Position numbers and translations under genes: made by a program
Assembly (NCBI RefSeq): GCF_000422085.1
Contig: NC_021741.1
Coordinates: 2,790,001 to 2,854,000 of the forward strand
DNA length: 64,000 bases
DNA from: Serratia liquefaciens ATCC 27592
GTDB lineage: Bacteria > Pseudomonadota > Gammaproteobacteria > Enterobacterales > Enterobacteriaceae
Direction: 5' to 3'
In this document: in pieces, positions 14,841-26,117 of the stretch
Layout: every line of letters starts with the position of its first letter
How positions within the stretch are numbered: position 1 is the stretch's first letter
Notes under the pieces: model-generated
What the model was told of the DNA's origin: nothing
Database searches by the model: none
What the model saw: the letters and a program-made list of their open reading frames with translations, nothing else

Positions 14841-15737
14841 TCAGCTGCGTTTGCTCGGTTTACCCGGCTTGCTGCCCGCAGCACTGCGGCGACCGCTTCC
14901 AGCCACCTGGGTGTGACGCTTAACGGCACGACGGATCTGGTTAGCCTTCACACGGCGACGCTCGCGCTCAACAGGCATCTTGCTGACGGTTTCAGGCTTG
15001 AGGTCAACCAGTTCGCGCAGGTAGTTGATCGCCGGCAATTCCAGTTCGGTCCAACCGCCACGAGGAATGCCTTTTGGCAGGTCGATATCGCCGTAACGCA
15101 CGCGGATCAGGCGGCTAACCTGAACGCCAACGGCTTCCCACAGACGACGAACCTCGCGGTTACGCCCTTCGGTCAGGGTTACGTTGTACCACTGGTTTAT
15201 GCCTTCGCCACCCTGGAAAGTGATGGTGCGGAAAGCCGCCGGGCCATCTTCCAGTTGAACGCCTTTGCTCAGTTGCTTCACTTTTTCGTCGTCAATCTGG
15301 CCAAATACGCGCACGGCATATTCACGCTCAACTTCACGACTTGGGTGCATCAGGCGGTTAGCCAGTTCACCGTCGGTGGTGAACAACAACAGGCCTGAGG
15401 TATTGACGTCCAGGCGCCCTACCGCTACCCAGCGCGAACCACGCAGCTTGGGCAAGCGATCGAAGACCGTCGGGCGACCTTCTGGGTCGCTGCGAGTACA
15501 CAATTCGCCTTCCGGCTTGTAATAAGCCAGCACGCGGCAAACCGCTTCTTCAGATTCTTTAACCGAAACGACGTGACCATCCAGACGGATTTTCATTGAA
15601 GGGGTTACTTCAACGCGATCACCCAGTTTGGCAATTTTACCGTCGACGCTGACGCGCCCGGCTTCAATAATGGTTTCGATTTCACGACGCGAGCCATGAC
15701 CGGCGCGCGCTAAAACTTTCTGTAACTTTTCGCTCAT
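14841..15737 (-). CDS. rluB: RluB, 23S rRNA pseudouridine(2605) synthase
   Basis: 298 aa. An N-terminal S4 RNA-binding domain ([19 protein letters not shown]) is followed by a pseudouridine synthase domain with the catalytic Asp in [19 protein letters not shown]. The C-terminal tail is basic. The start has an AGAGGTT RBS. The left end of a genomic island begins 18 bp upstream of the ATG, so the native promoter now lies about 9.4 kb away; present expression must come from the island end. The ORF itself is intact. Confidence 0.97.
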
Positions 15738-15754
15738 TGAGCAACCTCTAGTGT

Positions 15755-15770
15755 CGCCTTCACAGACGTC
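15755..15770. repeat. Putative attL core of the island
   Basis: CGCCTTCACAGACGTC. It matches 25108-25123 at 15 of 16 positions in direct orientation. It lies between rluB and the integrase gene, where attachment sites are expected. Confidence 0.65.
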
Positions 15771-15848
15771 AACGTATACTATACTTTCAATCAGTTACGG
15801 CCGCTAACGCCATAACCCTATAATCTTGCAAACATTTTGGAACACAGC

Positions 15849-17492
15849 ATGTCAAACAAGGTGTCACACAAACTGTCACACACGATACAGCGTGGCCGGA
15901 CATTCTACACAAATTTCCGACTGAATGATTCTAAAAAGTTTGTTCGTTTATCACTCAATACTGACAGTTTGAAACAGGCCCAAGTTACCATGTCCAGAAT
16001 GACCCCTTACATCCCTTTGGTTCAATCTGGGGCAATGTCTGTAGATGAGTTCAAGGCAAGACTCAACGGTCTAAAAGACCTCACCAAACAAGATTTAGAT
16101 ACATTCCTGTTTCGCCACCTTGAAGGCGATTATGAAGAGGTCGAAAGACTGCCAAAACTCGGTGCACTAACGAAAGAATACTTTGGTGGGAGTATTGACC
16201 GTGAAGCGACGAAAAATGACGCTTCTGGCTATGCGAGAGCAACAATAGATAACATTCATTCCGGCTCAGATTTTGGCTTGGCCGCTATCAAACATTCCCT
16301 GCGTTACCGGGGGATTAATCCTGAGGGGCTACCGGAGGAAATGAGTGATGTCGTTAGCCAGATCGATATGTCCCTAGCTATGAAGTACCAAGCCTATGAG
16401 GCGTTCTATTCGGACGACTTCTTGAAGTATCGCCAAATTTTGGGATCACTTAAGGAACAGGTAAAGATCCTCTCAGATAAAAAGCCTATACAGAACCACA
16501 CCCCACAGCAGCAACCCTCCGCTTCGGCTATACGGTTGTCAGAGGCTTGGAAAATGTATGTTGCCGACAAGGGGCAGAAATGGCGGCGGTCAGTCGCTAG
16601 TGAGAATCAACGCTTCTATGAGGTTTTGCTCTATGTAGTGGGAGATATCTCAGTAGACGGCATCAGTAGGCAGCAGATCAGAGAGGCCCTGAGGGTAGCA
16701 GAAAATCTACCAACGAGAACCCGTAAACCTTACTCAAGCATGAGCCTTGCCGAATGTATCGCCTACGATGTCCCTGAGGAGGATTTGATCTCAAGTGAAC
16801 ACGTACACAAACATTTAAAAATTTGGCGTTCATTCTTCAAAACTTACCTTGTGGAGCGTGAGGACCTGCTCACTACCTCACCCACAAAAGGGATCAATTA
16901 CGAAACCAAACCTAACAGGGGCGGTAACTACAGCGCCAGTGAAATGAATAGTATTAAGCGCCACCTTGAGAATTTACCAGACCACGACTGGCGTAAATAC
17001 TATTTCCTGACCCTTATCTATACAGGTGCTCGCCGTGGCGAGATTGCCGATATTCGGAAACACCACATCAGACAAGATGATGAAACGAGTCGCTGGTACA
17101 TTTTCATCGAGGGTGGTAAGACAAACCATGCTAAACGCCAGATCCCAATCCACAAAAACTTAGAGGATGGACTGTTCGGACGTATTGCCCCAATGGCAGT
17201 AGATGACCTTGTGTTCGGCGATCTACCGGACTACACGACTATCACGAATAAATGGGTAGAAATAATGAGGGAACTATCCATGCCCGATTACACAGAGTTT
17301 GGGTTCAAAAGACGCATTCACAGCTTACGACATACATTTATCAGTAAAGCTCTACGCAGCATAGGCAATAGTACGCTAGTTAAATTTGCAGTTGGTCACA
17401 GTCATAAGAAAAATCTAGGAATAACTGACACATACAATCACACCCCTCCCCTCATTGATTTGCTCCCTGTTGTAGATTGTCAGCATGAATAA
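15849..17492 (+). CDS. Tyrosine-recombinase integrase of the island
   Basis: 547 aa from the ATG at 15849 (a TTG 12 bp upstream is possible). The N-terminal SAM-like region is long (about residues 1-240). The core-binding domain lies at about 235-350. The catalytic domain has R395 (TGARRGEI), H491 and R494 (HSLRHTF), H517 (VGHSHKK) and Tyr529 (DTYNH). All active-site residues are present, so it should be functional. A TATAAT at about 15819 may be its -10. It lies next to the attL-like repeat and reads into the island, as satellite integrases do. Confidence 0.93.
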   Translation: MSNKVSHKLSHTIQRGRTFYTNFRLNDSKKFVRLSLNTDSLKQAQVTMSRMTPYIPLVQSGAMSVDEFKARLNGLKDLTKQDLDTFLFRHLEGDYEEVERLPKLGALTKEYFGGSIDREATKNDASGYARATIDNIHSGSDFGLAAIKHSLRYRGINPEGLPEEMSDVVSQIDMSLAMKYQAYEAFYSDDFLKYRQILGSLKEQVKILSDKKPIQNHTPQQQPSASAIRLSEAWKMYVADKGQKWRRSVASENQRFYEVLLYVVGDISVDGISRQQIREALRVAENLPTRTRKPYSSMSLAECIAYDVPEEDLISSEHVHKHLKIWRSFFKTYLVEREDLLTTSPTKGINYETKPNRGGNYSASEMNSIKRHLENLPDHDWRKYYFLTLIYTGARRGEIADIRKHHIRQDDETSRWYIFIEGGKTNHAKRQIPIHKNLEDGLFGRIAPMAVDDLVFGDLPDYTTITNKWVEIMRELSMPDYTEFGFKRRIHSLRHTFISKALRSIGNSTLVKFAVGHSHKKNLGITDTYNHTPPLIDLLPVVDCQHE

Positions 17493-17522
17493 CACGATTT
17501 GTTATGAGGGCTTAACCTATGT

Positions 17523-17720
17523 TCAATGAAATATCCTCTTGCTGGGGCAACTGCCAGCTCCTTTCTTTACTGTTGTCTCAGTTCTGTGACCATCACTGTA
17601 GACGCAAACCTTCCCACCTCGAGTTGGATAGGAATCAATCAATGTGAGAGTGTTGACCGAAGCATAACTTTTCGACAGCATTAATAATCCACATAGTGCT
17701 AATATCTTCAGTAAATGCAT
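17523..17720 (-). CDS. Small putative exported protein
   Basis: 65 aa from the ATG at 17720 (TTG one codon upstream is possible). An N-terminal hydrophobic signal-like segment LLKILALCGLLMLSKSYA ends at a plausible signal peptidase site. The mature part is about 45 residues with two cysteines (KVCVYSDG, GSCPSK) and a basic tail. No family was recognised. It is oriented against the integrase gene and follows another small exported ORF. Confidence 0.5.
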   Translation of the reverse strand: MHLLKILALCGLLMLSKSYASVNTLTLIDSYPTRGGKVCVYSDGHRTETTVKKGAGSCPSKRIFH

Positions 17721-17825
17721 CAATGGTGTCTCGCCAAGAGTTTTAAGGATGTTAAAGCCCTGCCAGTTGTCCTCTACTGGCAGGTTTACTTCTCAATGCA
17801 TCAATGCTTTGTTATTTTTCATTGT

Positions 17826-18077
17826 TCAATCATTGACGATCACTATGTACCTACCGCCGCGATCTTTGATTGTGTAGTGATAGATATCATCACAGTAAAC
17901 CTCTACAGCACCGCCAGACCACTTGGCGTAGGCACCATTTACTACGTTGCATTTATAACCTGCTGACCTTATGACTGAACGTGCTTCGTCTTTTAACTCT
18001 TGGCTCCCCGTATCATTTGCAGACACCCCAAAGCTTGCGGCAAGCAAGATGCTACCCAGAAAGAGATTCGATTTCAT
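17826..18077 (-). CDS. Small putative periplasmic/secreted protein
   Basis: 83 aa. Clear signal peptide MKSNLFLGSILLAASFGVSA; the mature part has about 63 residues with two cysteines (YKCNVV, VYCDD) that could form a disulfide. The RBS AGGATTAAC precedes the ATG. It is divergent from the Fur-like gene across a palindrome-rich region. Family and function unknown. The downstream small ORF has the same general plan, so they may be a pair. Confidence 0.65.
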   Translation of the reverse strand: MKSNLFLGSILLAASFGVSANDTGSQELKDEARSVIRSAGYKCNVVNGAYAKWSGGAVEVYCDDIYHYTIKDRGGRYIVIVND

Positions 18078-18162
18078 GTTAATCCTAATTTTGTTATGTT
18101 TTACATATGGTTAAGAACAGGATAAAAAATATTCCAAACATTATTGATCTGTAGTAACTATC

Positions 18163-18193
18163 AATCAATTGATTTCGATCGTTTTTAACGATC
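18163..18193. promoter_or_regulatory. Two adjacent perfect palindromes, candidate operators
   Basis: AATCAATTGATT (18163-18174) is a perfect 12-bp palindrome. GATCGTT-TTT-AACGATC (18177-18193) is a perfect 7-bp inverted repeat. Both sit in the divergent control region between the small exported gene and the Fur-like gene. Confidence 0.5.
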
Positions 18194-18280
18194 AAAATGA
18201 TTGAGGTGTAGCACGTTGCCAAGGTAACTTATAAGGCTGCTAATAGTTGCCGTGGTGCTGGTTTATTGTTGATTTTTTTA

Positions 18281-18299
18281 AATGATAACTATTCTCATT
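18281..18299 (+). promoter_or_regulatory. Fur box upstream of the island's Fur-like gene
   Basis: AATGATAACTATTCTCATT. The inner 7-1-7 sequence TGATAAC-T-ATTCTCA matches 12 of 14 defined positions of TGATAATNATTATCA. It lies 58-76 bp before the TTG start and overlaps the likely -35 region; TAAAAT at 18315-18320 could be the -10. Confidence 0.75.
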
Positions 18300-18356
18300 T
18301 GCTGATTTGTATGGTAAAATATATACATGGCATAATTACAAATGGAGGCTGCTTAT

Positions 18357-18701
18357 TTGAGTTCACATAGCTACACCCCACCTGAGTTCTATAAACCTAC
18401 CGATATACAACGTAAAGAATTGAGCGGGATCTTAAATGACGTGGGGCAGATACTGACTGTTCAACGCATTAGCATACTGCACTATCTGGCATCCCTGCCG
18501 TTTCCGACAGGCGTTGATTTGATTGCTAAGAAGACAGATGTTCCATTATCTACCACATATCGCGTTTTGCAGATATTGGCAGAATGTGGCTTGGCTGACT
18601 TTATTGTTGATAAGGCATCTATTCAACGTTGGTTTCTTATCCATGATGGAAGCAATAATGCTTGTTCCTCATGTGGACAGGTCTACCACACCGGTTATTA
18701 A
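18357..18701 (+). CDS. Truncated Fur-family winged-helix regulator
   Basis: 114 aa from a TTG with a perfect GGAGG RBS 8 nt upstream; an in-frame ATG at 18342 has none. The winged-helix domain aligns with Fur: LTVQRISILHYL, the recognition segment VPLSTTYRVLQILAECGL, and a terminal ACSSCGQV (C103, C106) matching the first CXXC of Fur's dimerisation domain. The protein ends there, so the rest of the dimerisation and metal-sensing domain is absent, including the usual His-rich stretch. It is the first gene after the Fur box and probably heads the replication operon. It may be a DNA-binding antagonist or island regulator; this is inference. Confidence 0.75.
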   Translation: MSSHSYTPPEFYKPTDIQRKELSGILNDVGQILTVQRISILHYLASLPFPTGVDLIAKKTDVPLSTTYRVLQILAECGLADFIVDKASIQRWFLIHDGSNNACSSCGQVYHTGY

Positions 18702-18821
18702 AACAGCCGTTAATCTTAAACCTTTTGAAACACCATACCGTACCTGACACGGGTATTTTCCCCTGTGGGGTTTTGCGCGTTTGGCTGTTCGTTAAGTTAA
18801 TTAATGGAAGGAGAATTATCC

Positions 18822-19313
18822 ATGAGTACAAGAAATAAGGCAGTTATTCCTGAAGAGCTGAAAACATTCTTTGAGGAGATTAAGCAAGCATATCAGCCTG
18901 ACCCTAATGAGCTGCAACGACGGGTTGACGAAGCCTTAACTCGATACGATGCAACTCAGAAAGTACAGCGGTTTTCTGAAAGACCACCGATGTTAATGAC
19001 GAAACTGGAGGAACTGATTTTGAGTGGATGGCGCTTTGATATCAGTATTCCAAATCCAGTTCAAGCTAGTCCTACATTCATGAGCGTTGCGCTACGTAAG
19101 CCAACGGAACTTATTGAAAAGGAAATAGGTGTAGTTCGACAACAGGAGGTGGAACGGTATCAGGCGGAACTGTCGGTTGCTTTAGAGCATGAAATTGACG
19201 CTTTAACGGCGCAAGCGGCAAATGACGCAGAAGTGAAGGCTCAAGAACAGGCAATCATTGAACAGCATGCAATGCGTGAGAGGATCCGTGCTTTCCTAAC
19301 TAACCCCGCATGA
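18822..19313 (+). CDS. Unknown small island protein
   Basis: 163 aa from the ATG at 18822, preceded by AAGGAG. It is helical and rich in Glu/Gln and Ala, with a likely coiled-coil in the last 60 residues (RQQEVERYQAELSV onwards). No signal peptide or membrane segment, and no family recognised. Its stop region overlaps the next ORF's possible start, and it lies upstream of the helicase, so a role in replication or regulation of the element is plausible but unproven. Confidence 0.6.
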   Translation: MSTRNKAVIPEELKTFFEEIKQAYQPDPNELQRRVDEALTRYDATQKVQRFSERPPMLMTKLEELILSGWRFDISIPNPVQASPTFMSVALRKPTELIEKEIGVVRQQEVERYQAELSVALEHEIDALTAQAANDAEVKAQEQAIIEQHAMRERIRAFLTNPA

Positions 19314-19324
19314 AGGGTAATCCT

Positions 19325-19528
19325 ATGAAGTTGAATAATATTACCGTAAGTGCAAAAGTAGCCGATTGGATAACAGAGGCAAGGGGCGATGTTCCCTTGC
19401 CGAACTTTATCCGGCAGGTACTGACTCAGATTGCTTTAACACCTGAATTGCAAACAGCCTTATTAAATTTTATGTCTCCTGTGGAGGGAAAGAATGTCGA
19501 AGCAACAAAGCAAACAAGTAGCAACTGA
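19325..19528 (+). CDS. Very small island protein upstream of helicase
   Basis: 67 aa from the ATG at 19325 (another start at 19310 overlaps the previous stop). It contains NNITVSAKVADWI and PLPNFIRQVLTQIAL, a helix-rich layout that could suit a small DNA-binding protein. Its end overlaps the helicase gene by 35 bp, a sign of translational coupling. No family recognised. Confidence 0.5.
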   Translation: MKLNNITVSAKVADWITEARGDVPLPNFIRQVLTQIALTPELQTALLNFMSPVEGKNVEATKQTSSN

Positions 19529-20834
19529 AGATGCAGAAGATCGTGTACTTAATGCGTTTATTGATTATTTGAAAGGCGCTGGTTGGATGCTTAAATCAAC
19601 TCAAATGGGGATGGAACTGTCTAACTGTCTTGACGGTAGTGTATTAAATTACCACAGTATTTCAGGTCTTTTTGGACAATGGGTAAACAGGAACAATCGC
19701 ACAATTGATTCAGGAACACAGTACGATCCTTCGTGGTGGTATAAACTGAATGGGCGATTACCGTTCGTTACTCGTGATATATTTAGACCGGCATTTGAGG
19801 CGGAAATTTTTGTTCCTCTTGCTTCTGGTACGTTGGCTGTGAATACCTACAAGTGCTATAGAGCGGAAGAACCAGCGAACAACTTTGATCCCCATCCTGC
19901 ACCGTGGCTTGAGTATCTTGAACGTTTGTTCCCGGCAATTGATGACAGGGAGGTTGTGTCCGATTGGCTTGCTCATATGTTTCAGCGTCCAGATCAGCGT
20001 CCCTCTTGGCACTTGCTATTTTCGGGAGATACAGGCACAGGGAAAGGATTCTTGTTCGATAAAATCCTGTCCCCGCTTCTTTGTAAGCAGACCGCTTCAG
20101 TGAGTAGTTTTTCGCAAGTGACAGAGAAACATAGCCAGCTGTTTACTAAGAACATGCTTGTACACATGGATGATATGTACACAACCAACAGCAATCAGAT
20201 GAATAAGCTCAAATCTATTCTCTCCGAAGAGAGTGTTACGATCAGACCTCTGTACGAGGCTGAACGAACAGAGAGAGTTTATGCGAGAGTTATTTTTTCC
20301 AGTAATAAGATCTGCCCTCTAAAATTGGAGAGCAACGAAAGGCGATGGTATGCACCTGCTTTTATGGTTCACAAAGTCGATTTGTCCGAAACGCAAACAT
20401 TCATCCAAGAAGTCCTTGTACCTTGGATTGATAGCGGTGGCTTGAATGTAATCCATGAGTGGCTCTTGGGGCGGGATCTACAGAACTTCAATCATAAGTA
20501 CATATCTCAATCATCTACGTTGAAACAGATGGTCAATAATTCGGTTTCAGTATTGGATATAGAATTAGACTCTTGGTTAAGTCATACGCCTGTTTTCCAA
20601 TTTGATGCAATACGGCGAGCATTCCCAGGTACACATCAGGCAGTAGCTGATTCACTCACTGAAAGGGGATATGGAAAGTGTCAGCCATTCCAGAATGTCT
20701 CTCATCCAATAACAGGAGAGAGGTCTAAAGCCGTATGGTGGAGACCGAAGGGCTATAGTACTAGTGATGTTCGTAACTGCATTGCGCAAGAATATGCACC
20801 TGCTGTCTATGATTCATCGTCACCACCATTCTGA
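19494..20834 (+). CDS. SF3 (superfamily 3) helicase-like replication protein
   Basis: 446 aa. The AAA+ core has Walker A GDTGTGKG (residues 178-185), the Walker-B-like strand MLVHMDDMY (221-229), the sensor strand VIFSSN (266-271) and the arginine region NERRWY (281-286). This is the pattern of the helicase domain in phage and satellite replicases of the P4 alpha/DUF5906 type. The N-terminal 150 residues lack a recognisable primase active site. A WWRP-containing C-terminus may bind DNA. RBS GGAGGG precedes the ATG. It probably initiates replication of the excised element. Confidence 0.85.
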   Translation: MSKQQSKQVATEDAEDRVLNAFIDYLKGAGWMLKSTQMGMELSNCLDGSVLNYHSISGLFGQWVNRNNRTIDSGTQYDPSWWYKLNGRLPFVTRDIFRPAFEAEIFVPLASGTLAVNTYKCYRAEEPANNFDPHPAPWLEYLERLFPAIDDREVVSDWLAHMFQRPDQRPSWHLLFSGDTGTGKGFLFDKILSPLLCKQTASVSSFSQVTEKHSQLFTKNMLVHMDDMYTTNSNQMNKLKSILSEESVTIRPLYEAERTERVYARVIFSSNKICPLKLESNERRWYAPAFMVHKVDLSETQTFIQEVLVPWIDSGGLNVIHEWLLGRDLQNFNHKYISQSSTLKQMVNNSVSVLDIELDSWLSHTPVFQFDAIRRAFPGTHQAVADSLTERGYGKCQPFQNVSHPITGERSKAVWWRPKGYSTSDVRNCIAQEYAPAVYDSSSPPF

Positions 20835-20837
20835 GTA

Positions 20838-20851
20838 GGGGCTTCGGCCCC
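20838..20851 (+). terminator. GGGGC-UUCG-GCCCC hairpin after helicase gene
   Basis: A perfect 5-bp GC stem with a UUCG tetraloop four bases after the helicase stop. There is no T-run, so it may be an attenuating hairpin rather than a full terminator. Confidence 0.5.
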
Positions 20852-20854
20852 CTT

Positions 20855-20970
20855 CAACCCCAGCCTAGAGCTCAACAACCCCACACCAACCCCACCATCA
20901 ACCTTGCGGTTAATTTTTCACATCATGCTGAATTATAAGTTAATTTTAATTTAACCTGACAAACCCCACC
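20855..20970. other. Candidate replication origin: AACCCCA(C) iterons plus AT-rich stretch
   Basis: The motif occurs at 20855-20862, 20876-20884, 20887-20895 and 20963-20970, all in one orientation. The last two share AACCCCACCAT. An AT-rich block (about 20908-20957) lies between the third and fourth. The position immediately after a replicative helicase gene suits a satellite origin, but this is inference from layout. Confidence 0.4.
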
Positions 20971-21007
20971 ATGATTTACGCTTTTCCTAGGTATATACCA
21001 TATACAT

Positions 21008-21154
21008 GTGACGAACGTCGGTAAGTCACATGCTGTAGGCAATGGCTATGGCACAGCAAAGTTCGCCGAGCTGAAAGCATTTGGTGCCACAGTACCTAAT
21101 GTGAAGGAAGTTAAGCAGAAGGCATGCTTTACCGGATGGCTAAGGCCAGATTAA
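21008..21154 (+). pseudogene. Short coding remnant, possibly gene 3' end
   Basis: An open frame of 48 codons from a GTG with coding-like character, containing GKSHAVGNGYGTAKFAELKA and ending FTGWLRPD. There is no RBS. It may be the residue of a gene truncated by rearrangement next to the serine recombinase. I do not recognise the family. Confidence 0.3.
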
Positions 21155-21417
21155 AATTAATCTGCAATTCTCATTGATTACTCCCCATTGCCTGTGCTGT
21201 CTGGTCTGTCCGCGTTGAGCTCATACCGATTTTCTCAACTCAAATGGCAAGTAATCAGGATGAAGAAAGCGTTGACAGTGTAGTCTCAAAACCATCTCCT
21301 TTTGATACTGACAAAAGAGCATGTGAAACAGGGTGTTTCCATGTCCCAAAAGGTTGATTTGGCTATTTTGATACAATATAATTATGAGACTTACTTTTAA
21401 GACAATGAGTTTCCTAT

Positions 21418-21978
21418 ATGTCATCCGTCATCGGTTATGTCCGTGTATCAACTTCTGAGCAGACTATTGAGAATCAGAAGAAACAAATCAAAGAGGCTGG
21501 CTATCAGATTGGCAAGTGGTTCAGCGATGAAGCTGTTAGCGGCTCTGTAAAAGCGGTAGAGCGTAAAGGCTTCAGCGACCTGCTGAACTATGTCCGTGAA
21601 GGTGACACGCTAATTGTTATCGGTATAGACCGCTTAGGCCGTAACACGATTGATGTCCTCTCAACCGTTGAGATGCTACAGGCGAAAGGCGTGAAGGTTA
21701 TCAGCCTGAGGGAGGAGTTCGACCTGTCTACGTCCGTTGGTAAGGCCATGCTAACGATGATGGCTGGGTTAGCATCGCTCGAGAAAGATCTAATAGCAGA
21801 ACGCCGTACAGCAGGTATCAAGCGTGCTCAGAGTGAAGGTGTCCACTGCGGTAGACCGAGCAAGGCCACCAGCGAACAAGTTATGGTACTGCTAGCACAG
21901 GGGTTGTCACCTAAGCAGATCATGGCAGAGTTGAACATCAGTAAGGCTACATACTACCGGCTTAAAGTAGCCGCATAA
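21418..21978 (+). CDS. Serine recombinase (resolvase/invertase family)
   Basis: 186 aa, typical for small serine recombinases. The catalytic serine is S11 in GYVRVSTSEQ, with the conserved IDRLGRN segment (residues 75-81), the E-helix TMMAGLASLEKDLIAERRTAGI and a C-terminal HTH (SPKQIMAELNISKATYYRL). It could perform resolution or inversion within the island, or be a relic of a transposon. A possible promoter has AT-rich ACAATATAATTATG upstream at about 21373. No inverted target repeats were found. Confidence 0.9.
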   Translation: MSSVIGYVRVSTSEQTIENQKKQIKEAGYQIGKWFSDEAVSGSVKAVERKGFSDLLNYVREGDTLIVIGIDRLGRNTIDVLSTVEMLQAKGVKVISLREEFDLSTSVGKAMLTMMAGLASLEKDLIAERRTAGIKRAQSEGVHCGRPSKATSEQVMVLLAQGLSPKQIMAELNISKATYYRLKVAA

Positions 21979-22118
21979 CCCCCTATGATATTTCCCAAAT
22001 ATTAGCATCGTTCATGGGGGCGGGTTAAGACTGCTAAGCAACGCTTCTAATGTGCGGGATGATGATTAGATGAAAGTTTCACCGCTTTTTACGCATAACA
22101 TCGAGGAAGTAGCTGTAG

Positions 22119-23171
22119 TTACTTTTCTTCCTCCTCAGGGGCAGACTTTAATACAGGCGTTGTTGTTTTCCCTTTACGTATGCCAAGACTTAATCCTGAT
22201 GGAAGTTTCTCGAGAGCAATCAATGTCCCACTGTCTACAATGATCCTTTTGTCATCCAAAACTGTATAAGTGGGATACCATCGAAGAGACTCTTGATCCC
22301 ATTCATATGTTAGCTGTCGTGGTGGATTACCTCTAGATCTCAACGTTCCAATTAGCTGTTTTGCTTGTGCAGCGGCTTCTGGGAGGGCGTCATGAGCTGC
22401 ATAGAGAAGCTTCACATTTTTTCCCCTAAACAGGAAAGAAACCTGACAGCCATCTTGATATGAGCTGATGTCGAGCAATGGATTCTTTCTATCAGCTAAC
22501 TTTGTGAGTAACTTACGAACCCATTCATGAAGTGCTATATAGGTACGTTTGCCAGCTTCAGAAGCAATTGATGTTGTGAATGGATTCCATACTATCGCCA
22601 GAAAACTAATGCCGATTCTGATCAGTTCCTGTGTGACTTCCGCTGTGTTATGTGAAAGCTCTACGTATTTTATTTGTATTGGGGCACTGTTGGTAACCTG
22701 TTCTAACCACTTCGAATCAACTTCTCTTGGATCAGTTGCAAATTCAATCCAAGCGTTATCTGGTATCTCTGGAAGTTCCTCAGGGGATCGCTCGAATTTA
22801 TTAGTATCGATACCTAATTGATTGAATTCTAAAACATCTCCACCAGCATAGAACCCTAAAATAGCAACAACGAATTTTGAGCCATTTTCATGTACGAAGT
22901 TTGCACTTTCAATCGTCTGCCCTTTTGGTCTCCCCGGATCATGGTTATGCAAGAGGATGAAGGGATTTCTATTGATTTTTGCCACAAGCTCAGTAGGGTC
23001 TGCTGGCACTATGAGTTCACCATCATCACCTCTAGCGTCTGTCCAAAGCACCGCCGGTACAAGTTTTCCATAAATACCTTTTGAGTGGCGCTCAATAGCG
23101 CTGTTTACCCAATCACGAGCACTTTCTGTTTCCAACAGATTAGGCATAAGCAATTTCCCCGTACCTTGCAT
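22119..23171 (-). CDS. Unknown 350-aa island protein
   Basis: The AAGGA RBS supports the ATG at 23171. No signal peptide or transmembrane segment. Around residues 70-90, PFILLHNHDPGRPKGQ weakly recalls either the HxH...PxG metal motif of JAB/RadC-like domains or the NHDP..P.G motif of HK97-type prohead proteases. Neither could be confirmed by eye. The C-terminal half is mixed alpha/beta with an acidic tail ending EEEEK. It is the only large gene on the minus strand of the island and is divergent from the DarT-like pair. A defence or regulatory role is speculative. Confidence 0.7.
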   Translation of the reverse strand: MQGTGKLLMPNLLETESARDWVNSAIERHSKGIYGKLVPAVLWTDARGDDGELIVPADPTELVAKINRNPFILLHNHDPGRPKGQTIESANFVHENGSKFVVAILGFYAGGDVLEFNQLGIDTNKFERSPEELPEIPDNAWIEFATDPREVDSKWLEQVTNSAPIQIKYVELSHNTAEVTQELIRIGISFLAIVWNPFTTSIASEAGKRTYIALHEWVRKLLTKLADRKNPLLDISSYQDGCQVSFLFRGKNVKLLYAAHDALPEAAAQAKQLIGTLRSRGNPPRQLTYEWDQESLRWYPTYTVLDDKRIIVDSGTLIALEKLPSGLSLGIRKGKTTTPVLKSAPEEEEK

Positions 23172-23423
23172 TTTACTTTTCCTTCTAAATGACAGTGATG
23201 GCAGTTAGAAAACAAAGCTAACCAATTGATTAAAAATAACATTAACACAAAAACAACCAATAATGGTTAAGCACACGAATTTACATTGAATTATCAGTAA
23301 TAAAACCTAAAAAACCATCAAAAAGCATAAAGAAAGTCTTAATTTTAAAAAGTGAGGCCGTGTACGCTTTTATTTTTCTGAAAATCAATAAATTATAAGA
23401 AAAAATAATCATTAAGGTCAAAA

Positions 23424-24059
23424 ATGACACAGCAAATCCAACAAATCAGAGAGATTGTAGCTCAACGTGAGATCAAACAACTTGTGCATTTTACCCGCAT
23501 AGAGAACTTAGAAAGTATCATGCAGCATGGCATTGTTCCGATTGCCGATACAGCAGAAAAACAAATCACAGCAGCAATAAATGATCAAGCTAGGTGGGAT
23601 GGCCGGACCAAGGCATCTTGCCTGTCAATTACCCTTCCTAATTGCCAGATGTTCTTCAAGTATCGCCGAGAAAATCCAGATGTAAATTGGATTGTGTTAG
23701 GTGTTGACCCTTCAGTTTTATGGTTAAAAAACTGTGCATTCTGCCGCTACAACGCTGCTGATGCGAGAATCAGTGGTCAGTTACTAGAAGCATTGCAAAC
23801 TCCGGCGTCTTTATCTGGAATGTTCGATGAAACCGAAGGGCTGGCATCTAGACAAGAACAACGTTTGAAAACCTTCGATACTACAGATGTGCAAGCAGAG
23901 GTGTTAGTATTTGACGTTATAGAACCTCAATACATTTTTGCGGCTGCTTTTAACAATCTAGAAACCAAGAATAATTTCGAGAAATTACTTGGGGAGAGAC
24001 CAGCACAAATCAATCCTGTTGGCGGTGGATTCTTCGCCTCCCGTTCATACGTTCGTTAA
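23424..24059 (+). CDS. darT: DarT-like DNA ADP-ribosyltransferase toxin
   Basis: 211 aa, typical DarT (DUF4433) size. The NAD-binding H22 lies in VHFTRIENLESIMQHGI; the region ARWDGRTKASCLSIT corresponds to the DarT R...DG block; NAADAR follows; and the catalytic glutamate E159 sits in QAEVLVFDVI. DarT enzymes ADP-ribosylate bases in single-stranded DNA and act in abortive phage defence. The next gene starts 9 bp later and is the presumed antitoxin. The upstream AT-rich region (23172-23423) likely carries the promoter. Confidence 0.85.
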   Translation: MTQQIQQIREIVAQREIKQLVHFTRIENLESIMQHGIVPIADTAEKQITAAINDQARWDGRTKASCLSITLPNCQMFFKYRRENPDVNWIVLGVDPSVLWLKNCAFCRYNAADARISGQLLEALQTPASLSGMFDETEGLASRQEQRLKTFDTTDVQAEVLVFDVIEPQYIFAAAFNNLETKNNFEKLLGERPAQINPVGGGFFASRSYVR

Positions 24060-24068
24060 GGTTATTCA

Positions 24069-24776
24069 ATGGCACAAAGACCCGTATACATCCCTACTGG
24101 TGAAAAATCACTTTATGTCAAAACTGAGCTTATAGACTTCACTTGGTTTCCTGGCATGTCCGTTTCACAGAAGCAAAAGTCGATAGATTCTCTACACGAC
24201 GCGGCTATCGACTGCTTACCAAACGTGAACAAAGTTCTGGAAATTTCCAGCAAGTCACGTGATAACCTTGGCATTGCTCTAAGCGCTTTCAATCTATCGT
24301 TCACCACGTTGAAACAACAACGAACCTTGACTATTGAATGTGCATTTCAAGGAAGTAAGGTTTTTCAACATGGAGGCCCATACACAGACATGTATGATAT
24401 GCCCCCCCGCGAAGCAAAAAAAGATAAGCGCCTCTTAACTTCCGGACGGCTCAAAAACTTCAAGTTTTTTGGCACCGAATGGGAATTGGAACCACAAACA
24501 GCTTTTTATGACTGGCTCTACATTAGTGCATTGAGAAAACAGCCCCAACTTGCAGAGCAAATCATTGAATATGATGCATTTACAGATATCGAGTTTAATC
24601 CTGAGCGTTCAATCAATTGTCAGGCCTACTCTGCTGCGCTTTACGTCACACTGTGTAAATTAGGCAAACTAGATGAGGTTGTTTCTTCAAAGGAAAACTT
24701 CCTAGACGCTATTAAAAACGTGTCTATTAGTAACACACAACAAGATGAAACTACCCAATCAGGTTTCGGCTTCTAA
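24069..24776 (+). CDS. DarT-associated antitoxin, probably NADAR-type (DarG1-like)
   Basis: 235 aa directly downstream of darT, in the antitoxin position. The features LEISSKS, IECAFQGSKVFQHGGPYTD, FFGTEWELEPQTAFYDWLY and FTDIEFNPERSINCQA fit my memory of the NADAR-DarT1 associated family, which reverses DNA ADP-ribosylation. No macrodomain motif is seen, so this is not a DarG2-type antitoxin. Specificity cannot be stated from sequence. A GACTGA/TCAGTC hairpin follows at 24789-24806. Confidence 0.65.
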   Translation: MAQRPVYIPTGEKSLYVKTELIDFTWFPGMSVSQKQKSIDSLHDAAIDCLPNVNKVLEISSKSRDNLGIALSAFNLSFTTLKQQRTLTIECAFQGSKVFQHGGPYTDMYDMPPREAKKDKRLLTSGRLKNFKFFGTEWELEPQTAFYDWLYISALRKQPQLAEQIIEYDAFTDIEFNPERSINCQAYSAALYVTLCKLGKLDEVVSSKENFLDAIKNVSISNTQQDETTQSGFGF

Positions 24777-25107
24777 GACATATGCTCCGACTGAGGCATG
24801 TCAGTCTCATTATTCAGTGTGCAAACTTAGCACCCCATGCTACTGAGACATTGAATATTGCTCTTTCGTGTAGGGGTATAAAAGTGGGAACGAGCTAAAT
24901 CCTTCAACTGAACCCATCATCGTTCCCACACTTTCTGCTCTCTCCTACGAATAAAGATGAGTCTATTCCCGTGATACAAACCACTAATGTGCTCTGTAAC
25001 ACGTGTAGTGTTAAATGCTGGAATAGTTCATGTCATACAGCAAAGAGAATAGACTTGAAAATAGGTTTCAACACTTTGTTTTTTAACGTGAAATTAAAAT
25101 TCAGTTG
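24777..25107. other. Non-coding right end of the island
   Basis: About 330 bp without a supported gene. It holds a short hairpin (24789-24806), a long-armed inverted repeat (24884-24929) and the approach to the putative attR core. It may contain integrase arm sites or a small RNA. Confidence 0.5.
24884..24929. repeat. Perfect 10-bp inverted repeat
   Basis: GTGGGAACGA (24884-24893) and TCGTTCCCAC (24920-24929), 26-nt spacer. Farther out, GTAGG (about 24870-24874) and CCTAC (about 24944-24948) extend the symmetry imperfectly. Confidence 0.65.
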
Positions 25108-25123
25108 CGCCTTCACAGGCGTC
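25108..25123. repeat. Putative attR core of the island
   Basis: CGCCTTCACAGGCGTC, a 15/16 direct repeat of 15755-15770. Internally CGCCT-TCAC-AGGCG is a dyad, the layout expected of a tyrosine-recombinase core with inverted arm sites. Confidence 0.65.
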
Positions 25124-25191
25124 GGGGGGATGACCGTCGCGGCGTCAGGCGCCACAGCGGTAACAATACGTTTACTTGGATCGAACCGCGC

Positions 25192-25197
25192 ATTATA
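25192..25197 (-). promoter_or_regulatory. Likely native rluB -10 box, stranded by the island
   Basis: On the minus strand this reads TATAAT followed by GCGCGG. It lies between the Hod-like gene and the att core. With the island removed it would be about 100 bp upstream of rluB. The -35 is weak (GTTTCA-like). Confidence 0.45.
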
Positions 25198-25276
25198 CAG
25201 GCTTTCAATAGGGTTGAAACCCACTTTGTTGTCTGGTCGATTATCGAAAGCTATCGATTGCGTGAGAACTCGCTGA

Positions 25277-25298
25277 AAAGCGGGTCTGCCCCCGCTTT
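25277..25298 (-). terminator. Terminator of the Hod-like gene
   Basis: AAAGCGGG/CCCGCTTT stem with a 6-nt loop and T-rich minus-strand tail, 22 bp beyond the stop codon. Confidence 0.75.
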
Positions 25299-25319
25299 AT
25301 AACCTACTCGGAAAACGGA

Positions 25320-26117
25320 TTAATCATCGAGGAAATCGACTACCGCCCGATACACTGCCGCTGGCTGCTCAAGAATACCAAGGTGAGTACGGGCATTCTC
25401 CAGCCGCACGACCGAGAAAAATGGATGGTTGGCGGCAAAGCTCTGCTGTTGCCGCAAATAGTCTTCGCCACGATCCAGTGAGTAAATATGCCGGCAAGCA
25501 GGCGGTGAGGTCAATTCCCCCAGCCGGTTTAGCGGCGAACCGTATTGTCTGTAGGCTTGCTCAATCGCCACGCCGGCGGCCTGCCAAACGCGATAATCCT
25601 CCTGCGCCATTTCAACGGTCAAATGCTGTTTTACCTGTGGGTGTTCAATACCGCCCTGCCAGAATGTGAATAAATCATCACGCGCCGCTAGCCAGTGTTC
25701 AGGCCGCTGCATTTGCTGAACGGAATCGAAAAATGCAGGCTCAGGCTGGGTCATGATCCAATCGAGAAACACCATTCCCTGCATCTGCTGCGGCATGTTC
25801 TCGGCCAACGCCACCGCTATCCAACTGGCGTGCGCTACCGACAGAGTCACAAACCGCTCCACTTGCAACTCAAGCAGCAATTGCTGGAGATCTGCCAGCA
25901 GATCCTGTGCGCCAAGGGAGAGTCCGGCATCGCGATCAGACAGAGCGTGCCCCCGCCAGTCGAGGCTGATCACCCGATACTTTTGCGACGCCAGTGCGGT
26001 AAAGGGGGCAAATACGGTTTTTGGTTCACACCAACCGGGCAGCAGGACCAACGTCAGCGGGCCTGAACCGGAATCATGATAATCGAGAGAAAGGGTGCCA
26101 TGGCGAAACGCTGTCAT
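25320..26117 (-). CDS. Hod-like alpha/beta-hydrolase-fold cofactor-free dioxygenase homologue
   Basis: 265 aa. The segments FLDWIMTQPEPAFF, PEHWLAARDDLFTFW, QAYRQYGSPLNRL and CRHIYS...HPFFS match in order what I recall of bacterial 3-hydroxy-4(1H)-quinolone 2,4-dioxygenases (Hod/Qdo/AqdC). D119 and H245 occupy the expected Asp and catalytic His positions. The nucleophile position is Ala95 (SVAHASW), not Ser, which argues against ester hydrolysis. The inferred substrates are alkylquinolones or a related heterocycle. An AGGAGA RBS precedes the ATG. It is upstream of rluB in the island-free layout. Confidence 0.75.
   Translation of the reverse strand: MTAFRHGTLSLDYHDSGSGPLTLVLLPGWCEPKTVFAPFTALASQKYRVISLDWRGHALSDRDAGLSLGAQDLLADLQQLLLELQVERFVTLSVAHASWIAVALAENMPQQMQGMVFLDWIMTQPEPAFFDSVQQMQRPEHWLAARDDLFTFWQGGIEHPQVKQHLTVEMAQEDYRVWQAAGVAIEQAYRQYGSPLNRLGELTSPPACRHIYSLDRGEDYLRQQQSFAANHPFFSVVRLENARTHLGILEQPAAVYRAVVDFLDD

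Follow-up and report, generated by a model that had tools for sequence, protein, structure and literature searches.

The window, that is, the whole stretch of 64,000 nucleotides analysed (Serratia liquefaciens ATCC 27592, contig NC_021741.1, positions 2,790,001 to 2,854,000), carries an integrated mobile element whose replication operon is opened by mini-fur, a gene for a short relative of the regulator Fur. A predicted Fur box overlies the likely promoter of this gene. Judged from the sequence, host Fur could repress the replication operon when iron is plentiful, while mini-Fur, apparently blind to metal, could share the operator as an autoregulator or a competitor. The probability of this reading is estimated at about 0.5.

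Fur box and promoter of mini-fur

The features that carry this reading are the following (aa, amino acids; bp, base pairs):

18281..18299, + strand: Fur box AATGATAACTATTCTCATT (motif scoring, genome matches, family conservation)
18292..18320, + strand: likely promoter, TTCTCA-17 bp-TAAAAT, with TG ahead of the -10 (promoter scan; equal geometry in relatives)
18357..18701, + strand: mini-Fur (114 aa, started by TTG), a Fur winged helix that stops after CxxC (family alignment, structure, profile search)

Scoring was performed with two known Fur motifs, the 7-1-7 motif and the 19-bp palindrome. The initial annotation had placed a strong Fur box (12/14) directly ahead of the gene, and this was borne out: positions 18281-18299 match the 7-1-7 motif at 12 of 14 positions and the palindrome AATGATAATnATTATCATT at 16 of 18, and the box recurs before other family members. 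With the older 19-bp consensus, the same box scores 10/19 in register and 13/19 at best, shifted three bases on. It is the sole Fur site with at most two mismatches in the 64-kilobase (kb) window, and no second site of at least 12/14 was found in the element. Sites with up to three mismatches occur in the window at chance level (3 observed vs 2.3 expected in shuffles); the box is taken to be beyond chance because the family promoters and the search of the own genome separate it from chance, which the scan of the window does not. The arrangement is that expected of a Fur-regulated promoter, with a 7-1-7 operator overlying the likely promoter. The -35 sequence TTCTCA sits in the right half of the box, so that a protein bound there would cover it. 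The scan shows no general enrichment of promoter-like sites (5 observed, 8.6 in shuffles); the likely promoter at 18292-18320 therefore rests on its conservation in relatives.

The box was also searched for in the host genome as a whole. When up to three mismatches are allowed, the 19-mer matches 14 times at 13 places, since one place is palindromic and counts on both strands; the reversed control matches once. The nearest other site (one mismatch) precedes a TonB-dependent receptor. Flanking open reading frames (ORFs) were scanned at nine other sites, three further sites being left out. Four of the nine adjoin metal-transport genes (two TonB receptors, a pair of FecCD permease and major facilitator superfamily transporter, and MntP), one adjoins a gene for an extracytoplasmic function sigma factor, and the remaining four have no metal-related neighbour that could be named. 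Since the genome matches exceed the control and several of them adjoin metal-transport genes, the box looks like the host's own Fur sites. An intact fur gene is present elsewhere in the host genome.

Conservation across the family was assessed in 19 distinct promoters (less than 80% alike) chosen from 33, which represent 32 loci (L014 was taken twice); three of the 19 stem from broken Escherichia coli copies of the gene. A site of at least 11/14 lies within 130 bp in 13 of the 19, a site of at least 12/14 in nine and a site of at least 13/14 in three. Dinucleotide shuffles average 0.91, 0.12 and 0.01 such promoters, respectively; the observed counts are not reached in any of the 500 shuffles. 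Exclusion of the broken E. coli copies leaves 11 of 16 promoters with at least 11/14. The distance from box start to -10 is 32 bp in 10 of the 15 representatives having at least 10/14 plus a -10, and 44 bp in two; it is 22 bp in a drifted Klebsiella group and in G440, the most divergent of the members read, whose protein is about 33% identical to that of the window and whose promoter carries GTTGATAATTATTATCATT, a 14/14 match. Where a selected set of boxes is referred to below, it comprises 23 loci (left out were L022, L023, L025, L031, L062, L098, L099, L100 and L101), with the spacing forced to 22, 32 or 44 bp and with L028 given a tied, worse-placed match. As far as these promoters tell, the Fur box travels with the mini-fur gene.

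The mini-Fur protein

The TTG start of mini-fur at 18357 is preceded by GGAGG at 18344-18348; an alternative ORF of 119 aa begins at an ATG overlapping that GGAGG. TTG is the start in 29 of the 33 family promoters, and three of the other four are broken copies; the family starts were picked by script from in-frame candidates with a stretch resembling a ribosome-binding site.

A 114-aa protein with a Fur-type winged helix had been proposed from the sequence. The predicted structure, a profile search of PDB and hhalign support this type for its DNA-binding domain; against it stands a Pfam FUR (PF01475) score just below the gathering cut-off (22.0 vs 23.1 bits). Pfam FUR matches 22 of 46 family members at E <= 0.01, and PF01475 is annotated in two of 120 relatives among the matches listed. 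PADLOC gave mini-Fur only weak matches, to CARF/CasR/Csa3 models.

Residues are given in E. coli-type Fur numbering. In Fur-DNA structures, a guanine is read by Arg57 and the minor groove by Lys15, Tyr56 packs on thymines, and H33 and H90 belong to one metal site; for the R57A variant, no binding was detected (PMC4506495). In all 46 members aligned with Fur, Arg19, Thr54, Arg57, Cys93 and Cys96 are kept, while the Tyr56 column is split between Tyr (21 members) and His (25 members). H33, E81, H90, E108, H125, C133 and C138 are replaced by other residues or gaps in 46/46, and the H88 column retains His in 13. The regulatory metal site of Fur (H33, E81, H88, H90) is thus not found as such. Relative to Fur, mini-Fur also has a five-residue deletion before the recognition helix. 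The first CxxC, a Fur feature, is present in 46/46; none of the 46 has the dimerisation domain or the second Cys pair. That the protein ends just after the first CxxC, as initially annotated, is correct, and the metal-sensing and dimerisation parts are missing. Since Arg57, Thr54 and Arg19 are kept and the metal ligands and second Cys pair are lost, the DNA-reading half of Fur is mostly kept and the sensor half gone.

Family and distribution

The description of the protein as a truncated Fur holds for the lost sensor half and fails insofar as it implies a single event. A database search with the single sequence found three relatives; a search with the alignment brought 146, and the listing covered 120 of them. 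Among those listed, the chain ends 8-9 residues past the CxxC in 108 (110 when the last CxxC is counted), CxxC[GNH][QN] is present in 116, and 114 are 105-124 aa long. Identity of mini-Fur to the plasmid copies is 36-40%. The alignments indicate that mini-Fur is an old family with a fixed end point, not a one-off truncation.

Among 72,556 plasmid records, tblastn detected relatives in 13, namely ten Klebsiella plasmids of 5.5-6.6 kb (the nine fetched ones are circular), one 11.6-kb Leclercia plasmid and two large plasmids. The Leclercia plasmid (L014, NZ_CP088264) resembles a tandem dimer of a unit of about 5.8 kb. The gene is short and TTG-started, hence easy to miss: the PLSDB gene table has no feature at mini-fur in 10 of the 13 records (the table is incomplete; RefSeq annotates one). 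Neither of two regulator queries found a relative in 50,697 phage records. In viral contigs, the single sequence found none and the alignment found one, in a 26-kb contig.

In the species-genome collection, mini-fur occurs at 10 loci. In the order sample, 10 of 394 genomes matched at E <= 1e-3, four of them (own genome included) at E < 1e-18; in the family sample, 11 of 392 matched at E < 1e-20, own included; in the class sample, the own genome alone among 369 matched at E <= 1e-10. Seventeen other ORFs among the weaker genome-sample matches were judged by eye to be Fur/Zur or IclR-type. By these samples, mini-Fur is a family of enterobacteria. Chromosomal elements of E. coli carry it at three places, and mini-fur is interrupted in three of the four fetched chromosomal loci (L099-L101). 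These three lie near rnpB and msyB, with the broken mini-fur upstream of an annotated YagK/YfjJ gene.

Linkage to replication genes

Downstream of mini-fur in the window, the same strand carries:

18822..19313, + strand: 163-aa partner protein (169 aa from an upstream ATG)
19310..19528, + strand: small ORF of 72 aa, with relatives found only in elements with a DUF5906-type replication protein
19494..20834, + strand: DUF5906/VapE-like primase-helicase, presumed replication protein (PF19263, 56.8 bits; PF05272, 34.0 bits; phrog_1156, DNA primase)

Gene order was compared in 22 distinct elements from 29 stretches; the seven not counted are six repeats (identity-checked) and L091, which holds the integrase start only. 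A replication protein (Rep) is encoded downstream of mini-fur in 18 of the 22, being a DUF5906 helicase in six and a Gp2/YagK-YfjJ Rep in 12. No Rep of either type was seen in three, and one element is cut by the end of its stretch. The 163-aa partner is found in 16/22, and a serine recombinase in 18/22. The presence of two unrelated Rep types behind one regulator suggests a control unit for replication as such. The initial annotation had put the box ahead of the first operon of the island; mini-fur does open an operon, which is to be described more exactly as the one that holds the replication gene.

The confident model of the 163-aa partner consists of an alpha/beta head and a 66-residue C-terminal helix (predicted local distance difference test score, 86.9), and its comparison with solved folds gave no match at E <= 0.001. 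Database relatives of this protein number 176; among the 120 listed, about 36 have a longest contig of 5.1-7.9 kb (by eye).

Proposed mechanism and alternative readings

In the mechanism proposed, Fur-Fe2+ would occupy the predicted box over the -35 and repress the operon of mini-fur, the 163-aa protein, the small ORF and Rep when iron is plentiful. On iron shortage the operon would open, and replication of the element could rise. Mini-Fur, which would amount to a Fur DNA-binding domain with most base-reading residues kept and with metal sensing and the dimerisation domain lost, could bind the same operator independently of metal. It would then either act as a brake on its operon while Rep dosage increases or displace host Fur. 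The CxxC may, speculatively, pair two mini-Fur chains around one zinc to give a small dimer. An extension of this scheme is put forward tentatively, the odds being rather against it: a family of Enterobacterales elements might couple replication, and perhaps excision, to iron, with mini-Fur, evolved through loss of the sensor half of Fur, taking over the operator so that the switch latches or is dosage-limited once iron falls, whatever the iron supply does afterwards.

Several observations weigh against control by host Fur with participation of mini-Fur. Two of the 13 promoters scoring at least 11/14 come from broken E. coli copies. The box is absent at three chromosomal loci (L022, L023, L025) and at one of E. 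coli (L098), and L031 and L062 retain one half of it. In the Klebsiella group, the site is the dyad GATGCGAAAGTTTCTCATC, which scores 9/14 and is found in five of the 23 selected loci, with a 10/14 version in one more. Since some members thus lack the box or carry a drifted dyad, iron control, if real, would not be universal. Mini-Fur itself may be dispensable in some lineages, because the gene is broken at L099-L101 and the Rep gene is still annotated there. On the side of the protein, the minor-groove lysine Lys14 is kept in none of the 46 members, and isolated Fur-type domains without the dimerisation domain are expected to bind weakly.

The box could instead be the operator of mini-Fur alone, with an inherited Fur-like specificity, autoregulation and no physiological role for host Fur. 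This is the main alternative, though rated as rather unlikely. The site travels with the mini-fur gene, the dyad of one Klebsiella group is near-perfect (8/9 pairs) yet drifted from the Fur consensus, as expected of a different reader, and the right half of the box varies less than the left half in the selected set, where 14 of the 16 distinct boxes have C at position 14. However, the same recognition helix, STAYRTL, goes with a drifted site (L093) and with a 13/14 site (L092), and the most divergent mini-Fur carries the best host-type box, 14/14; for these reasons host Fur is somewhat favoured as one reader of the box. In addition, Fur in the cell will probably bind any site of 12-14/14. Action of mini-Fur in trans on the host Fur regulon, by which cellular iron uptake would be raised, could be supported by the kept base-reading residues and the Fur-type operator; it is considered improbable, as low, self-limited expression is suggested by the prevailing TTG start and by the location of the box at the promoter of mini-fur itself.

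Two further readings concern the nature of the protein. A better fit to another winged-helix family had been named in advance as evidence against a Fur relative, and it was in part obtained: over the helix-turn-helix region, Pfam HTH_IclR outscores FUR and is the best Pfam match (32.7 bits vs a cut-off of 22), with 44 of the 46 members matched at E <= 0.01. The shortfall and the smaller number of members matched by FUR, given above, point the same way, as do the hhalign values (97.2% over 61 columns for IclR with 9 sequences vs 96.6% over 87 columns for Fur with 5) and the best-scoring non-members in the genome searches, which have about 250-300 aa and were read as IclR type. An IclR-type protein should, however, carry a C-terminal effector-binding domain, and the 114 aa of mini-Fur contain no such match. 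IclR membership was rejected on the predicted structure and the full-length match, which favour Fur, and is regarded as very improbable. The idea that mini-fur is a decayed fragment of host fur with a leftover Fur box has the short length in its favour and next to nothing to recommend it otherwise. It is refuted by the fixed end point and narrow length range of the listed relatives; moreover, the identity to plasmid copies indicates an old family, and host fur is intact elsewhere.

Relation to known systems

The family Fur/PerR/Zur (PF01475) shares with mini-Fur the winged helix, the base-reading Arg and Thr, the first CxxC and, at many members, a Fur-type operator. Mini-Fur differs in having neither the regulatory metal ligands (apart from the His in the H88 column of 13/46 members) nor the dimerisation domain and second Cys pair. 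Control of mobile-element genes by host Fur has long been known for the toxin gene of the Stx1 phage and for colicins. In these cases, as presumably in the window element, iron is sensed by a mobile element through the borrowed Fur of its host; there the cargo is controlled, whereas here the box lies ahead of an operon for replication, together with a Fur-like gene of the element's own.

Fpa/YlaN is said to relieve Fur repression by acting on Fur itself. YdiV-SlyD is described as an anti-Fur factor which relieves Fur repression, likewise by acting on Fur itself (PMC7515728). Mini-Fur might similarly relieve Fur repression, but via DNA binding, and it is encoded by the element that it would serve.

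P4-like satellites and phage-inducible chromosomal islands resemble the window element in being small and integrated and in carrying an integrase, a primase-helicase or Gp2-like Rep and defence cargo. I55-type islands, likewise small and integrated, share the integrase, the primase-helicase or Gp2-like Rep and the defence cargo (PMC12595487). In contrast to satellites and I55-type islands, no AlpA, capsid or packaging gene was recognised among the 10 window ORFs scanned, and the module also occurs as free plasmids of 5.5-6.6 kb. Among the same 10 ORFs, none was named as a packaging-interference gene.

No description of a Fur box combined with an element-borne short Fur was found in the open-access literature by title and start of abstract (subscription papers and preprints were outside this scope). 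Pairing the control of a replication operon with a Fur relative that lacks the sensor would be a new form of such host-Fur control. If true, iron limitation would cue replication or movement of small enterobacterial elements, one of them with anti-phage-type cargo. In that case, a Fur DNA-binding domain that works naturally with neither the sensor nor the dimerisation domain would also allow a test of how much of Fur the reading of the box needs.

Ends and gene content of the element

The remaining features of the element are as follows:

15755..15770: attL core CGCCTTCACAGACGTC, 5' of rluB (16-bp direct repeat, congener comparison)
15837..17492, + strand: tyrosine integrase, 551 aa (Phage_integrase PF00589, 30.8 bits vs cut-off 27.1)
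17826..18077, - strand: small protein of 83 aa, with an N-terminus resembling a signal peptide by eye (ORF list; Pfam)
21418..21978, + strand: serine recombinase/resolvase (PF00239, 140.9 bits)
22119..23171, - strand: orphan protein of 350 aa (no Pfam, PHROG or PADLOC match; NCBIfam best E 0.18)
23424..24059, + strand: DarT-type ADP-ribosyltransferase toxin, cargo (PF14487, 63.5 bits)
24069..24776, + strand: DarT1-associated NADAR antitoxin, cargo, right end of the element (PF22397, 306.7 bits)
25108..25123: attR core CGCCTTCACAGGCGTC (direct repeat, congener comparison)

The 16-bp core CGCCTTCACAG[AG]CGTC is found at 15755-15770 and 25108-25123, with one mismatch between the copies. The match of the left flank stops exactly at 15770 in 23 of 29 congeners. 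In L048, L050 and L051 the site is empty: the left flank continues across the core and on into what follows 25108 in the window; in L053, the fourth congener checked, the core pattern is absent. The core repeats and the empty sites in congeners thus indicate that the element measures about 9.35 kb and lies immediately upstream of rluB. The earlier assignment to an island is confirmed in the form of an integrated mobile element with integrase, att repeats and an empty site in relatives. Its suggested likeness to a phage satellite gained no support from the 50,697 phage records or from the 10 window ORFs scanned for packaging genes.

The 83-aa protein belongs to no family found; relatives at about 50% identity lie near seven other distinct elements (8/22 with the window), which suggests a recurrent cargo or accessory gene. 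Control of this divergent gene by the box is unlikely, the relatives of the gene being located elsewhere in other elements. PADLOC recognised DarT and otherwise gave weak matches, e.g., CARF or PbeC models for the recombinase as well as for the 169-aa ORF; the DarT protein also has a PHROG head match at chance level (E 0.17). An Rfam scan of 15500-25500 gave no match at the gathering score. Ahead of the serine recombinase, a half-box AATTCTCATT is located at 21166-21175, about 240 bp upstream of the start of the gene, and a promoter-like site lies at 21354-21382.
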